Assembly: GCA_018969015.1 (NCBI GenBank)
Contig: JAGWZE010000011.1
Coordinates: 1 to 64,000 of the forward strand
DNA from: Alphaproteobacteria bacterium
GTDB taxonomy: Bacteria; Pseudomonadota; Alphaproteobacteria; Caulobacterales; Aquidulcibacteraceae
DNA length: 64,000 nt
Direction: 5' to 3'
Part shown: positions 27,545 through 55,999 of the stretch, piece by piece
Position numbering within the stretch: position 1 is the stretch's first letter
Layout: every line of letters begins with the position of its first letter
Notes under the pieces: model-generated
Seen by the model: only the letters and a program-made list of their open reading frames with translations
What the model was told of the DNA's origin: nothing
The model's database searches: none
Translations under genes and position numbers: made by a program

Positions 27545-27588
27545 GTGTGACCCGCGTCACGCCGGCCGGCGCGGCGGGTCGGTAGGGT
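27545..27588 (+). promoter_or_regulatory. Crp-type class II promoter of microprotein gene A
   Basis: GTGTGAC-CCGC-GTCACGC (27545-27562) fits the Crp consensus TGTGA-N6-TCACA with one mismatch. Exactly 20 bases later lies TAGGGT (27583-27588), a plausible -10 element. Counting its last base as -7 puts the palindrome centre at -41.5, the standard position of an activator at a class II promoter. The same arrangement recurs at 30006-30049. Confidence 0.6.
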
Positions 27589-27636
27589 CACCTCATCGAA
27601 CACGGGGGACGCGCCCCCGAACCACGGAGAGCCCCG

Positions 27637-27729
27637 ATGACCCGCTTCGTTTGCCTCGCGATCGCCACCGTCCTCGTCGCCGCCGGCGCGCTGCCGCTGC
27701 TCTCGAAAGCCGCGCTGCTGGTGGCGTGA
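27637..27729 (+). CDS. 30-residue membrane microprotein A
   Basis: MTRFVCLAIATVLVAAGALP followed by LLSKAALLVA: an N-terminal Arg, one hydrophobic helix and a Lys near the C-terminus, consistent with a single-pass or signal-like membrane peptide. GGAGAG lies six bases before the ATG, preceded by a small GGGGG-ACGCG-CCCCC hairpin. A paralogue at 30099 shares the pattern M-x-R-F-x-x-L ... A-x-x-x-P-x-L-x-K-A-A, the same length, Shine-Dalgarno sequence, 5' hairpin and promoter, which argues strongly that it is real. I know of no described function. Confidence 0.72.
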   Translation: MTRFVCLAIATVLVAAGALPLLSKAALLVA

Positions 27730-27806
27730 CACGCAATGACCCACCGCCGGCGGGAGCCGACGGTGGGCGCCAAAAGCGGCAAGTGGGGCGGAGAGTTCAG
27801 ATCGTC

Positions 27807-28256
27807 TCAGGCCATCGCCGTGCGCGGCGCGTCCGCTGCGGTCGCACGCAGCCCGCCGCCCGCGAGGATCGGCGCCAGGAACAGGCCGTAGAACACGAGA
27901 TTGCTGACCGCGTTGCCGGGGACGCCGCACGCCACCGAGATCGCGCTGTCGATCACCAGCCAGACCGTCGTCGCCATGACGAGACCGCGCCAAACGGGCG
28001 CCCCGTAGCGGGCCGCGATGTCGACGGCGGACAGCATCGTCAGCCCCCAGCCGATCGTCACCGCGCCGAGAATGCCGACGGTGAACCGCGCGCCGTCATC
28101 GAACCCGCCGGCACCGTCGAGCGGCCAGGCGACGAGGTCGTAGAAGAATTGCGCGAAGCCGTCCGTGGGCGCGAAGGCGCCGAGCGCCAAACCGCCGCCG
28201 AACGCGATCACGCCCAGGCACCACGCCTTCACCATGTTCGTCCATGTCCGTGTCAT
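27807..28256 (-). CDS. Integral membrane protein of unknown function
   Basis: A 149-aa protein with four hydrophobic segments (residues about 10-28, 50-67, 82-103 and 116-135). The family is not recognised. Start 28256 has AGGAGG five bases upstream (AGGAGGATGACATG). It lies between the two microprotein cassettes and is convergent with the first, with 77 bases between the stops. Confidence 0.7.
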   Translation of the reverse strand: MTRTWTNMVKAWCLGVIAFGGGLALGAFAPTDGFAQFFYDLVAWPLDGAGGFDDGARFTVGILGAVTIGWGLTMLSAVDIAARYGAPVWRGLVMATTVWLVIDSAISVACGVPGNAVSNLVFYGLFLAPILAGGGLRATAADAPRTAMA

Positions 28257-28303
28257 GTCATCCTCCTGTTGGGCCAAGGCGAAACGGCTTCGCCCGTCCG
28301 ACC

Positions 28304-28396
28304 ATCATCCTCGACCGCGCGGCGCGTGGTCGGGATCCAGGTGTGATGCTGCGGCCGCTGGATCCCCGGCACGCCTGCGGCGCGCCGAGGATGAGG
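28304..28396. repeat. Palindromic extragenic repeat (family A)
   Basis: Degenerate dyads bearing the words ATCCTCG, GGGATCCAGG and GGCGCGCCGAGGAT, the same words found at 49804-49993. The sequence CCCCGGCACGCCTGCGGCGCG folds into a GC-rich hairpin. It is typical of dispersed REP-like elements of alphaproteobacteria. It occupies the 265-base gap between the membrane protein gene and the XRE gene. Confidence 0.6.
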
Positions 28397-28521
28397 GAAG
28401 CGGGGGCTTTCAGCGTCCGCGGTCATCCTCCTGTGATGGGGCGAGGCTGGCGCGGGGAGGGAACGGTCTCAATTCCCTCCGACGTCATGGACAGGCGCGC
28501 GCGGCCGCGCACAATGCGGCC

Positions 28522-29310
28522 ATGTCGATCGATCTCCATCCCGCCTCGACCGCCGATTTCGGGGCCGCTTTGCGTGCGTGGCGCCATGCGCGCGGCCTGA
28601 GCCAGCTGGATCTCGCGCTCGCCTCGGAAACGTCGCCGCGCCACGTCTCGTTCCTGGAAACCAACCGCTCGCGCCCCAGCCGGGACATGGTCGAGACGCT
28701 CGCCGACGCGCTGGTGCTTCCGCGCGCCGCGCGTAACGGCCTGCTGCTCGCGGCCGGCTATGCGCCACTCTATCCGGCGACGCCGCTCGACGCCGCCGCG
28801 CTCGCGCCGTTCCGCGCGATGCTGGCCGATCTCATGGCCCGCCATGCGCCCTATCCCGCGCTCGTCGTCGACCGCTGGTGGACGATCCTCGACGCCAACG
28901 ACGCCGCCCGCGCGCTGCTTGGCGCCCTGCACGAGGGCGACGGGCCGATGAACGTCGTCCGTATGCTGACGGAAAGCCCGCTTGCCGCGCAGGCGATCGT
29001 CAATCTCGGCGAGGTGCTGCACGAGATGCTCGGCCGCATCCGGATCGAGGCGCTCGAGGCGGCTGCGGACCCGCGCTGCGCCGCCCAGATCCGCGCGCTC
29101 GAAGAGGCGCTCGCGCGCACGCCCGCGCCGCGCAGCTCGACGCCGCGCAGCCCGCTGGTGCCGCTCGTGCTGCGCACGCCCACCGGCGAGATGCGCTTCT
29201 TCTCGGCGGTCGCGCATTTCGGCACCAGCGAGGACGTCACGGTGCGTGATCTGCGTCTCGAGCTGCTCGTGCCGGCGGACGACGCCACGCGCGCCGCGTT
29301 CGGGGCCTAG
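28522..29310 (+). CDS. XRE regulator with MmyB-like ligand domain
   Basis: A 262-aa regulator. Residues 10-65 form a Cro/C1-type HTH (ALRAWRHARGLSQLDLALASETSPRHVSFLETNRSRPSRDMVETL), and the rest is the PAS-like MmyB ligand-binding domain (YPALVVDRWWTILDANDAARALLG; EDVTVRDLRLELLVPADDAT). Members control nearby redox or lipid genes by binding small ligands. Its target here is unclear. Its stop is shared, through the palindrome CTAG, with the convergent VOC gene. Confidence 0.88.
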   Translation: MSIDLHPASTADFGAALRAWRHARGLSQLDLALASETSPRHVSFLETNRSRPSRDMVETLADALVLPRAARNGLLLAAGYAPLYPATPLDAAALAPFRAMLADLMARHAPYPALVVDRWWTILDANDAARALLGALHEGDGPMNVVRMLTESPLAAQAIVNLGEVLHEMLGRIRIEALEAAADPRCAAQIRALEEALARTPAPRSSTPRSPLVPLVLRTPTGEMRFFSAVAHFGTSEDVTVRDLRLELLVPADDATRAAFGA

Positions 29311-29687
29311 GCGGGCGCCCGCGCCTGCCCGAACGCGATCAGGTTGCCGTCAGGGGCCAGCACCAGCAATTCGCGCTGGCCATAGGGCTTGTCCGCCGGC
29401 CCATGCACGTCCCCCGCGGGCAATGCGTCGAGCCTCGGCTTCAGCTCGGCGTAGAGGGCGTCCACGTCCCGGCAATCGAAATAATAGGCGAACCGCCGCG
29501 TGCCCGGCTGGAACGGATTGCCTGGCCCTGCCTCCATCATCCGCAGGCCCGCGCCTTCGCGACTGACATAGGCGTAGTCGCCCATCCGAACCTCCACGCG
29601 GAAGCCGAGACTCCCGACCATGAACGTGAGCGCCGCTTCGAGATCGGGCACGAGCATGAACGGCGTGACCTGGATGATGTTGGGCAT
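29307..29687 (-). CDS. VOC (glyoxalase/bleomycin resistance) family protein
   Basis: A 126-aa single VOC module pair: 'VTPFMLVPDLEAALTFMVGSLGFRVEVRMGDYAYVSREGAGLRM' and 'FDCRDVDALYAELKPRLD'; 'KPYGQRELLVLAPDGNLIAFGQA' closes the fold. Such small proteins bind bleomycin-like drugs or act as metalloenzymes; the substrate is unknown. The stop overlaps that of the XRE gene at CTAG. The 411 bases upstream hold a repeat and the second microprotein promoter. Confidence 0.85.
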   Translation of the reverse strand: MPNIIQVTPFMLVPDLEAALTFMVGSLGFRVEVRMGDYAYVSREGAGLRMMEAGPGNPFQPGTRRFAYYFDCRDVDALYAELKPRLDALPAGDVHGPADKPYGQRELLVLAPDGNLIAFGQARAPA

Positions 29688-29794
29688 CTTTCATCCTCGC
29701 GGCGGCGCGCGCCGCACGATCGCCCGGCGCCGGGCGAGGCGCAATGTGGGCGTGAGGGCGCGCGTTGGCTGGCCGCCGAGCGTCGACGTCACAA

Positions 29795-29963
29795 CGTCAT
29801 TCCGGGGCGCGCGGCACGCGCGAACCCGGAACCCAGCGGAATGCCGTCGCGTGCTGGCATCGTTTCGCATCAGGCCACGGGATGGTCCGGCGTCAACCAG
29901 GCCGATCCGGGGCGCCCGGTCGCCTGGGTTCCGGGTTCGGCCTTCGGCCGCCCCGGAATGACG
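29795..29963. repeat. REPIN-like paired inverted repeat (family B), copy 1
   Basis: The left end CGTCATTCCGGGGCGCGCGG and the reverse complement of the right end (CGTCATTCCGGGGCGGCCG) match, and both run on to CGAACCCGGAACCCAG. They flank about 80 variable bases. A second copy with the same ends lies at 55381-55542. No coding capacity. This is the structure of a REP doublet or a short non-autonomous element. Confidence 0.75.
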
Positions 29964-30005
29964 CCAACAGGGGGCGACGACCACTCCCGCGCCGCCGCGC
30001 CATGC

Positions 30006-30049
30006 GTGTGACCCGTGTCACACCATGCCGGGCGGGCGCCGGGTAGGGT
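30006..30049 (+). promoter_or_regulatory. Crp-type class II promoter of microprotein gene B
   Basis: GTGTGAC-CCGT-GTCACAC (30006-30023) is a perfect dyad and a perfect match to TGTGA-N6-TCACA. TAGGGT follows at 30044-30049, again exactly 20 bases on, placing the palindrome at -41.5. The spacing is identical to that at 27545 although the 20 bases between differ, so the geometry is conserved. Confidence 0.65.
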
Positions 30050-30098
30050 CTGTTCATCGGCCGCGGGGTTGACGCCCCGGGCCGCAGGAGAGACCGCC

Positions 30099-30191
30099 AT
30101 GATCCGCTTCGCTTCGCTCGTTGTCGCCGTCGTCGTGTTCACCGCGGTCGCCACGCCGGTGCTCGCCAAGGCGGCGATGATCGTTGGCTAA
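30099..30191 (+). CDS. 30-residue membrane microprotein B
   Basis: MIRFASLVVAVVVFTAVATP followed by VLAKAAMIVG, paralogous to the product of 27637. AGGAGAG lies six bases upstream, preceded by a CGGGG-TTGACG-CCCCG hairpin. The leader is 49 bases from the -10 element to the ATG, against 48 in copy A. It begins about 400 bases after the VOC gene and is followed by the M20 peptidase gene after 105 bases. The function is unknown; one transmembrane helix is predicted. Confidence 0.75.
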   Translation: MIRFASLVVAVVVFTAVATPVLAKAAMIVG

Positions 30192-55542: not shown

Positions 55543-55730
55543 GCGCGCTTTGATCCTCGTAGGCGCTGACCTTGGAGGGAGAGCAGGCCGGCGCCTCATC
55601 CACAGGCGCCGCGCCCGCAGCCCCGCGTGCGCTGTGCGGCGGGCGTTGACTTCGCCCCCCTCGCACAGCACTTCTCGCCTTAACGTTTGGAGCCGACGCG
55701 AGTCGCCCCCAAAGCGGTCAGACAGACGAA

Positions 55731-55950
55731 CCCCGCGGGAGAGCGCGTCGGCCGGCCGGTCAATGGTCAGGCTTTGGACGCCCCCGAAGGAGCAACCGCC
55801 CCGGAAACTCTCAGGGAGCCGGACCGCGGGGGGATGAACACGCTGGAGAGCGTCGCCGCGTTCGCGTGGCGGCCGCCGAAGGAGCAGCCGGAGCGGGTCG
55901 TTTCCGAAGGGAACGGGCGCCGGCCAATCTCTCAGGCCCATGGACAGCGG
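55731..55950 (+). promoter_or_regulatory. Tandem glycine riboswitch
   Basis: Two consecutive glycine aptamers. The first has P1 CCCCGCGG (55731-55738) with CCGCGGGG (55824-55831), the motif GGGAGAGCG, 'CCGAAGGAGCAA' and 'GGAAACTCTCAGG'. The second has CTGGAGAGCG (from about 55843), 'CCGAAGGAGCAGCC', 'CCGAAGGGAACGGGCGC' and 'AATCTCTCAGGCCCATGGACAGC'. The tandem arrangement before gcvT is the classic context: glycine turns on its own cleavage system. The riboswitch ends about 50 bases before the gcvT ATG. Confidence 0.93.
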
Positions 55951-55999
55951 GGGCGTGCGGCGCGTTCAGGCGCCGTGACGCGTCGAATCCGGGGTCCTG

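Follow-up and report, generated by a model that had tools for sequence, protein, structure and literature searches.

Putative CRP-type regulon of 30-residue single-helix microproteins in a Terricaulis-type clade of Caulobacterales

Bacterial membrane proteins of mostly fewer than 50 residues, consisting of a single helix, non-catalytic and expressed under particular conditions, are exemplified by Escherichia coli YohP, MgtS, AcrZ and MgrB (named in PMC12719787). Here, we describe predicted microproteins of this kind from an alphaproteobacterium of the Caulobacterales (family Aquidulcibacteraceae, assembly GCA_018969015.1), starting from two genes on the first 64,000 nucleotides of contig JAGWZE010000011.1, the stretch that we refer to as the window. 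As predicted from sequence, they resemble the four E. coli proteins in the properties listed above, and are unlike them in that the sequences are unrelated in the searches made and that the genome holds 19 paralogues with one promoter architecture. The explanation that we favour, and consider somewhat more probable than all others together, is that these genes encode microproteins which span the inner membrane once and pack on partners there, and that they are the core members of a regulon of CRP type (Clr-like).

The type I toxins Ldr, Ibs, TisB and DinQ (for DinQ, PMC3567139) are short hydrophobic peptides, several of them multicopy, and the microproteins share these traits; they differ in their predicted class II CRP-type promoter, and no antisense partner was found in a scan for sigma-70-like promoters. 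A 29-residue product tied to CRP is known from Vibrio cholerae VcdRP (PMC8672173). CRP represses VcdRP, whose peptide binds citrate synthase and whose RNA acts by base pairing (PMC8672173), whereas the promoters described here have a predicted activation geometry and precede ORFs for a predicted hydrophobic helix. A close regulatory parallel is the Clr regulon of Sinorhizobium meliloti, in which Clr acts as a receptor of cyclic AMP (cAMP) and cyclic GMP with the motif GTNNCNNNNGNNAC (PMC10127613). The palindrome stands in the same frame in both systems, both regulators are of the Crp-Fnr type with a cyclic-nucleotide pocket, and 18 sites of our genome fit the Clr motif. Unlike in S. meliloti, the box is the stricter GTGAC-N4-GTCAC, its perfect copies serve almost only one 30-residue family and the ligand of the regulator is a predicted one.

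The promoter cassette and its predicted regulator

Each cassette consists, in this order, of a GTGAC-N4-GTCAC palindrome, a 21-bp spacer, a TAnnnT element, a CATCG start, a leader, a purine-rich ribosome site and the ATG. In the window, where all parts of both cassettes lie on the forward strand, pattern search and alignment place the palindrome of copy 1 (TGTGACCCGCGTCACG) at 27546–27561 (centre 27553.5), followed by the −10-like element TAGGGT (27583–27588), a predicted 5' leader (27595–27636, starting at the A of CATCG) with a folded hairpin of 6-bp stem (27603–27619), and the ribosome-binding site GGAGAG (27626–27631). For copy 2, the palindrome (TGTGACCCGTGTCACA) lies at 30007–30022 (centre 30014.5), TAGGGT at 30044–30049, the predicted leader at 30056–30098, a hairpin of 10-bp stem at 30059–30083 and GGAGAG at 30087–30092. 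The initial annotation had correctly noted GGAGAG and a G+C hairpin ahead of both genes. It had overlooked the palindrome at fixed spacing, and regulation by the leader hairpin alone is not supported, as the class II CRP-type promoter is the dominant conserved signal.

In all 17 site-bearing copies found by protein search, the palindrome is centred exactly 41.5 bp upstream of the A of CATCG, and the promoter of a further copy, the 18th, keeps this offset. Only one copy (L048), which comes second in a tandem pair, lacks a site, and one of the 18 sites (L035) reads GTGCC in place of GTGAC. A −10-like TA...T is present in all 18 promoters and a conserved −35 in none. Judging from this conservation, transcription would start at the A of CATCG; relative to that predicted start, a CRP-like palindrome at −41.5 overlaps the −35 region and is followed by a −10. 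On sequence evidence, the family promoter is very probably of the class II CRP type. Averaged over pairs of copies, identity reaches 0.82 in the box, drops to 0.45 across the spacer, is 0.76 between the −10 and the start and 0.73 within the open reading frame (ORF), and amounts to 0.29 in the flanks, so the conserved unit spans box to stop. Predicted leaders are 36–45 nt long, and those of most copies fold into a short stem whose sequence varies from copy to copy; over 95 promoter-peptide loci the mean hairpin z was −1.11, versus −0.03 in control windows after the stop.

Genome-wide scans, all of them pattern searches, reveal how exclusive the box is. The perfect palindrome GTGACN4GTCAC occurs exactly 20 times in the 3.4-Mb genome and its reversed control not once, a count that covers perfect palindromes only; other genes may depend on CRP sites of lower strength. 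Seventeen of the 20 sit ahead of a 30-residue copy. Another (C63:58097) precedes a 53-residue single-helix ORF, MTTLNSPLSTYLAATCLYAAFGLPYLMGVARVRARPAATPAPAPAPVPVPSRR (L245:2381–2542, G000:C63), with the same promoter spacing, a hairpin-like leader and a Pro/Ala-rich tail, which is possibly an extended relative of the family. At C48 and C50, perfect boxes stand without the promoter layout and were taken as chance occurrences. A CRP regulon dedicated to microproteins is a hypothesis. The pattern TGTGACCCGNGTCAC, derived from the upstream regions, gave 22 forward matches versus four for its reversed control, and the majority of its best matches sit ahead of the same kind of ORF. In a closed relative (G062), five of the 19 site loci read have the full promoter, which is followed by a family member in four cases and by a hydrophobic ORF of 25 residues in the fifth; the control of the looser pattern used there gave 6–7 matches, so many of the remaining sites may be due to chance. 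When 85,000 species were scanned with the promoter as the starting point, 61 of 109 matches were followed by an ORF of 26–40 residues.

The same arrangement of box, spacer, TAnnnT and CATCG was also seen ahead of other small secreted or membrane proteins in Fulvimarina and relatives (L103, L125, L119, L183), Roseibium (L107) and rhizobial metagenome-assembled genomes (MAGs; L120, L122, L189, L203). Their products include MIRKTVLALAAA... (95–113 residues) and MRKTIILAIFTLLLAVATLVTNVIS... (about 72 residues), and each of the six such genomes searched encodes a CRP with about 35% identity to ours. Possibly, the promoter is an ancient means by which alphaproteobacteria express small envelope proteins. 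In a sister genus (g12), some family copies (L067, L097, L149, L187, L190 and L257) carry no CRP box and have GCATCC(A/G)AA-N~15-GCATCT before the leader, an element that resembles promoters of the extracytoplasmic function (ECF) sigma type.

The genome encodes two full Crp-family proteins above the Pfam cut-off, of which one looks FNR-like. The other combines a domain binding cyclic nucleoside monophosphates (cNMP) with a Crp helix-turn-helix domain, and its recognition helix reads SREKVNRKL and its pocket GEMAVLDGGGRSAD, which we take to match the E. coli CRP residues that read GTGA and hold cAMP. A CRP orthologue with a putative cAMP pocket and a putative GTGA-reading helix is present in the same genome as the class II CRP-type promoters. 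Among solved sequences, CRP of M. tuberculosis and regulators related to it come closest, and across 30 orthologues the recognition helix and the cNMP pocket are invariant or nearly so. The crp gene is followed on the same strand by an ORF with a class III guanylate/adenylate cyclase domain and preceded by a microprotein copy (L047); a microprotein copy lies within about 1.5 kb at six of the 30 crp loci. The cyclase was found beside crp in our genome only and in none of 29 relatives by a motif test, so this is not a conserved crp-cyclase module. By eye, the cyclase ORF (L247, G000:C63) continues with a likely membrane span and a region resembling formylglycine-generating and sulfatase-modifying enzymes.

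Regulator and peptide also occur together. With presence set at E < 1e-3 for the peptide and E < 1e-50 for CRP, 33 of 60 genomes of the family have both, 22 neither, two CRP only and three the peptide only (Fisher p 4e-11, genomes being counted without phylogenetic correction). The peptide-only genomes are G025 (83% complete), G072 (79%) and G074 (91%), and the two CRP-only genomes hold a divergent peptide-like ORF.

Copies, coding and distribution of the microproteins

Copy 1 (MTRFVCLAIATVLVAAGALPLLSKAALLVA) occupies 27637–27729 and copy 2 (MIRFASLVVAVVVFTAVATPVLAKAAMIVG) 30099–30191, both on the forward strand and both of 30 residues plus stop, as annotated initially and as borne out by ORF translation, protein search and codon analysis. 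The annotation took them for a family duplicated about 2.5 kb apart. The family stands, and its size is 19 copies in this genome: 18 were matches to one copy in a protein search, and the 19th (MFRFAAFAAAALVYASVMTPLWSVAAHVMA) was recovered through its promoter and not by that search. Every copy has exactly 30 residues and no internal stop. The copies are dispersed and the window pair are not sister copies. Copies 1 and 2 are 47% identical to each other and 80% and 77% identical to copies elsewhere in the genome, which argues against a simple local duplication. For 17 of the 19 copies the nearest relative is another copy of the same genome, and this suits expansion within lineages. Bearing on the idea of a mobile cassette, identity drops to background outside the box-to-stop unit. 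Plasmid and phage collections gave no match at E 1 with tblastn, a weak search with 30 residues, and thus no sign of carriage by such elements.

The annotation proposed a Ka/Ks ratio below 1 as a check on coding. Run as the ratio of nonsynonymous to synonymous changes (pN/pS), it gave 0.35 (95% confidence interval 0.28–0.45) over 31 disjoint pairs, with 0.96 and 2.23 in the other two sense frames, and 0.61 when pooled within 18 copies of our genome. Length and frame are kept in all copies. At the level of sequence, this is good evidence that selection acts on the peptide.

The copies of our genome carry one positive residue each near the N-terminus and none that is acidic, their hydropathy peaks at 1.6–2.6 over 19 residues, and an AlphaFold2 (AF2) model of copy 2 is a single helix of residues 2–29 (pLDDT 88). 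Consistent with the annotation, which had read the two genes as single-helix microproteins, one hydrophobic helix with a positive flank is predicted, and the microproteins are probably membrane helices; by the positive-inside rule, their topology would be N-in/C-out. A25 is present throughout a set of 49 distinct 30-mers, in which A10, A18, A26, V29 and A30 are nearly invariant. All 49 contain exactly one proline, at position 16 or 20, one helical turn apart, and its position tracks lineage. Pfam, NCBIfam and PADLOC gave only sub-threshold matches, in line with the annotation's statement that no named family fits, and Rfam gave nothing at the two loci. None of the curated profile libraries that were searched contains the family.

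The annotation expected conservation in other genera, and this was found within one Caulobacterales clade only. The family is confined to this Terricaulis-type clade, with up to 24 copies per genome and 10–24 in each of many sister genomes. Among 387 genomes sampled from the class, matches occurred only in our genome, apart from one weak match; among 298 genomes of the order, the family was present in four of 48 genera, all in the same family as our genome. Named contigs are mostly from Hyphomonadaceae or Terricaulis MAGs. Terricaulis and Vitreimonas belong to a clade adjoining the Hyphomonadaceae (PMC12700997). We found no description of small proteins of this bacterial group in the open-access literature searched. 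Copies often form tandem pairs, of which 37 were seen including the one in our genome; the box stands before the first gene in 33 and never before the second. Among the 36 pairs outside our genome, the AAC[AF] type is the second gene in 27 and the first in eight (p 1e-5).

Elsewhere in the window, tandem glycine riboswitch aptamers lie at 55726–55957 (Rfam RF00504, 61.6 and 42.2 bits). Between genes, at 28300–28400 and 29780–29965, there are what by eye look like palindromic repeats (CGTCATTCCGGGGCGC... and ATCCTCGGCGCGCC...), and sequence of a similar look is found again close to a further copy of the family (L001).

Explanations for the microproteins

According to the explanation that we favour, carbon, energy or redox limitation would raise the level of a cyclic nucleotide, probably cAMP; by likeness to other CRPs, the signal may be carbon or energy limitation. 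The CRP orthologue would then bind GTGAC-N4-GTCAC at −41.5 and act as a class II activator of the housekeeping polymerase at these promoters, in which no −35 is conserved. The resulting short mRNAs, hairpinned at the 5' end, would be made and translated from the purine-rich site, and the 30-residue helices, each with one proline kink, would insert N-in/C-out. There, they may pack on one or more membrane protein partners or on each other, with contacts made by small residues that are conserved and by the segment AA-x-[IL]-V-A at the C-terminus, and many copies on one switch would provide a high, graded dose. We give packing on a protein partner, which we prefer over a bulk change of the membrane, about an even chance.

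Several observations weigh against this explanation. Flanking genes at the 19 loci are diverse and indicate no partner, and a function based on neighbours was rejected for that diversity. Some copies in a sister genus use another promoter-like element, so CRP is not the sole regulator of the family. Taken singly, the leader hairpins are barely beyond shuffled sequences, and conservation shows weak helical periodicity (p 0.04 for the whole peptide, 0.25 for its middle). In about half of the 49 peptides, small residues stand at a spacing compatible with signal peptidase, and the mature product may be shorter.

This last observation leads to the alternative that the peptides are exported, an N-terminal Sec signal peptide being cut by signal peptidase to free a C-terminal extracellular or periplasmic signal of 5–12 residues. 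The layout is that of a signal peptide, small residues occupy positions 18 and 20 in 28 of the 49 with proline at −5 (other small-residue pairs occur elsewhere), the same promoter precedes small secreted proteins in other alphaproteobacteria, and there is a faint match to PhrC_PhrF (E 0.1). That match reached 12.6 bits against a cut-off of 25, however, and no one cleavage register suits all members: Pro20 rules out a cut at 18–20 in 21 of the 49, several sequences have N, M or F at position 23, and the conserved stretch A25–A30 would straddle the cut in some members. We regard export as distinctly unlikely. A helix that stays in the membrane could also act without any dedicated partner, many copies jointly altering membrane potential or fluidity in starvation and copy number setting the dose. 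YohP, a starvation-linked protein of 27 residues that lowers membrane potential, offers the nearest working model (PMC12719787), and the high copy number under one switch and the Ala-rich neutral helix agree with it. The conservation of A10, A18, A25, A26, V29 and A30 nevertheless exceeds what hydrophobicity needs, and the tandem pairs of sister genera carry two differentiated members, which suits specific packing; a bulk effect on the membrane is, in our estimate, unlikely.

The remaining two alternatives involve RNA. Size, hydrophobicity and multicopy habit would fit a family of type I toxins of about 30 residues like Ldr, Ibs, TisB and DinQ, each restrained by an antisense RNA. The region after the stop, where an antisense promoter is expected, is unconserved (identity 0.29), though, the leader is short with its ribosome site exposed, PADLOC gave no such toxin, and no sigma-70-like promoter was found opposite either window copy in a scan that covers sigma-70-like sites only; we consider toxins very improbable. 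Short transcripts with a structured 5' end could instead base-pair as dual-function or non-coding RNAs in which the ORF is secondary, a reading with a precedent in VcdRP, an RNA with a 29-residue ORF tied to CRP (PMC8672173). As selection acts on the reading frame, the leader sequence varies freely with only the hairpin persisting, and the flanks beyond the stop are unconserved, we consider it scarcely probable at all.

Within the favoured explanation of a CRP-type regulon of packing helices, a bolder version can be put forward tentatively, and we think it rather less likely to be right than wrong. The CRP of this clade would be a nearly dedicated switch for the dispersed family of 30-residue helices, its cAMP response would consist mostly of microproteins and not of catabolic genes, and the A-B tandem pairs of sister genera would be hetero-assemblies.

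Small membrane proteins are mostly known singly. Here, one receptor appears to drive at least 18 paralogous microprotein genes, and removing this one regulator should silence the whole family together. That nearly all copies stand behind one CRP-type switch suggests that, in this clade, cAMP signalling serves to fill the membrane with tiny single-helix proteins, and predicts a role for cAMP signalling in these bacteria beyond classical catabolite control.

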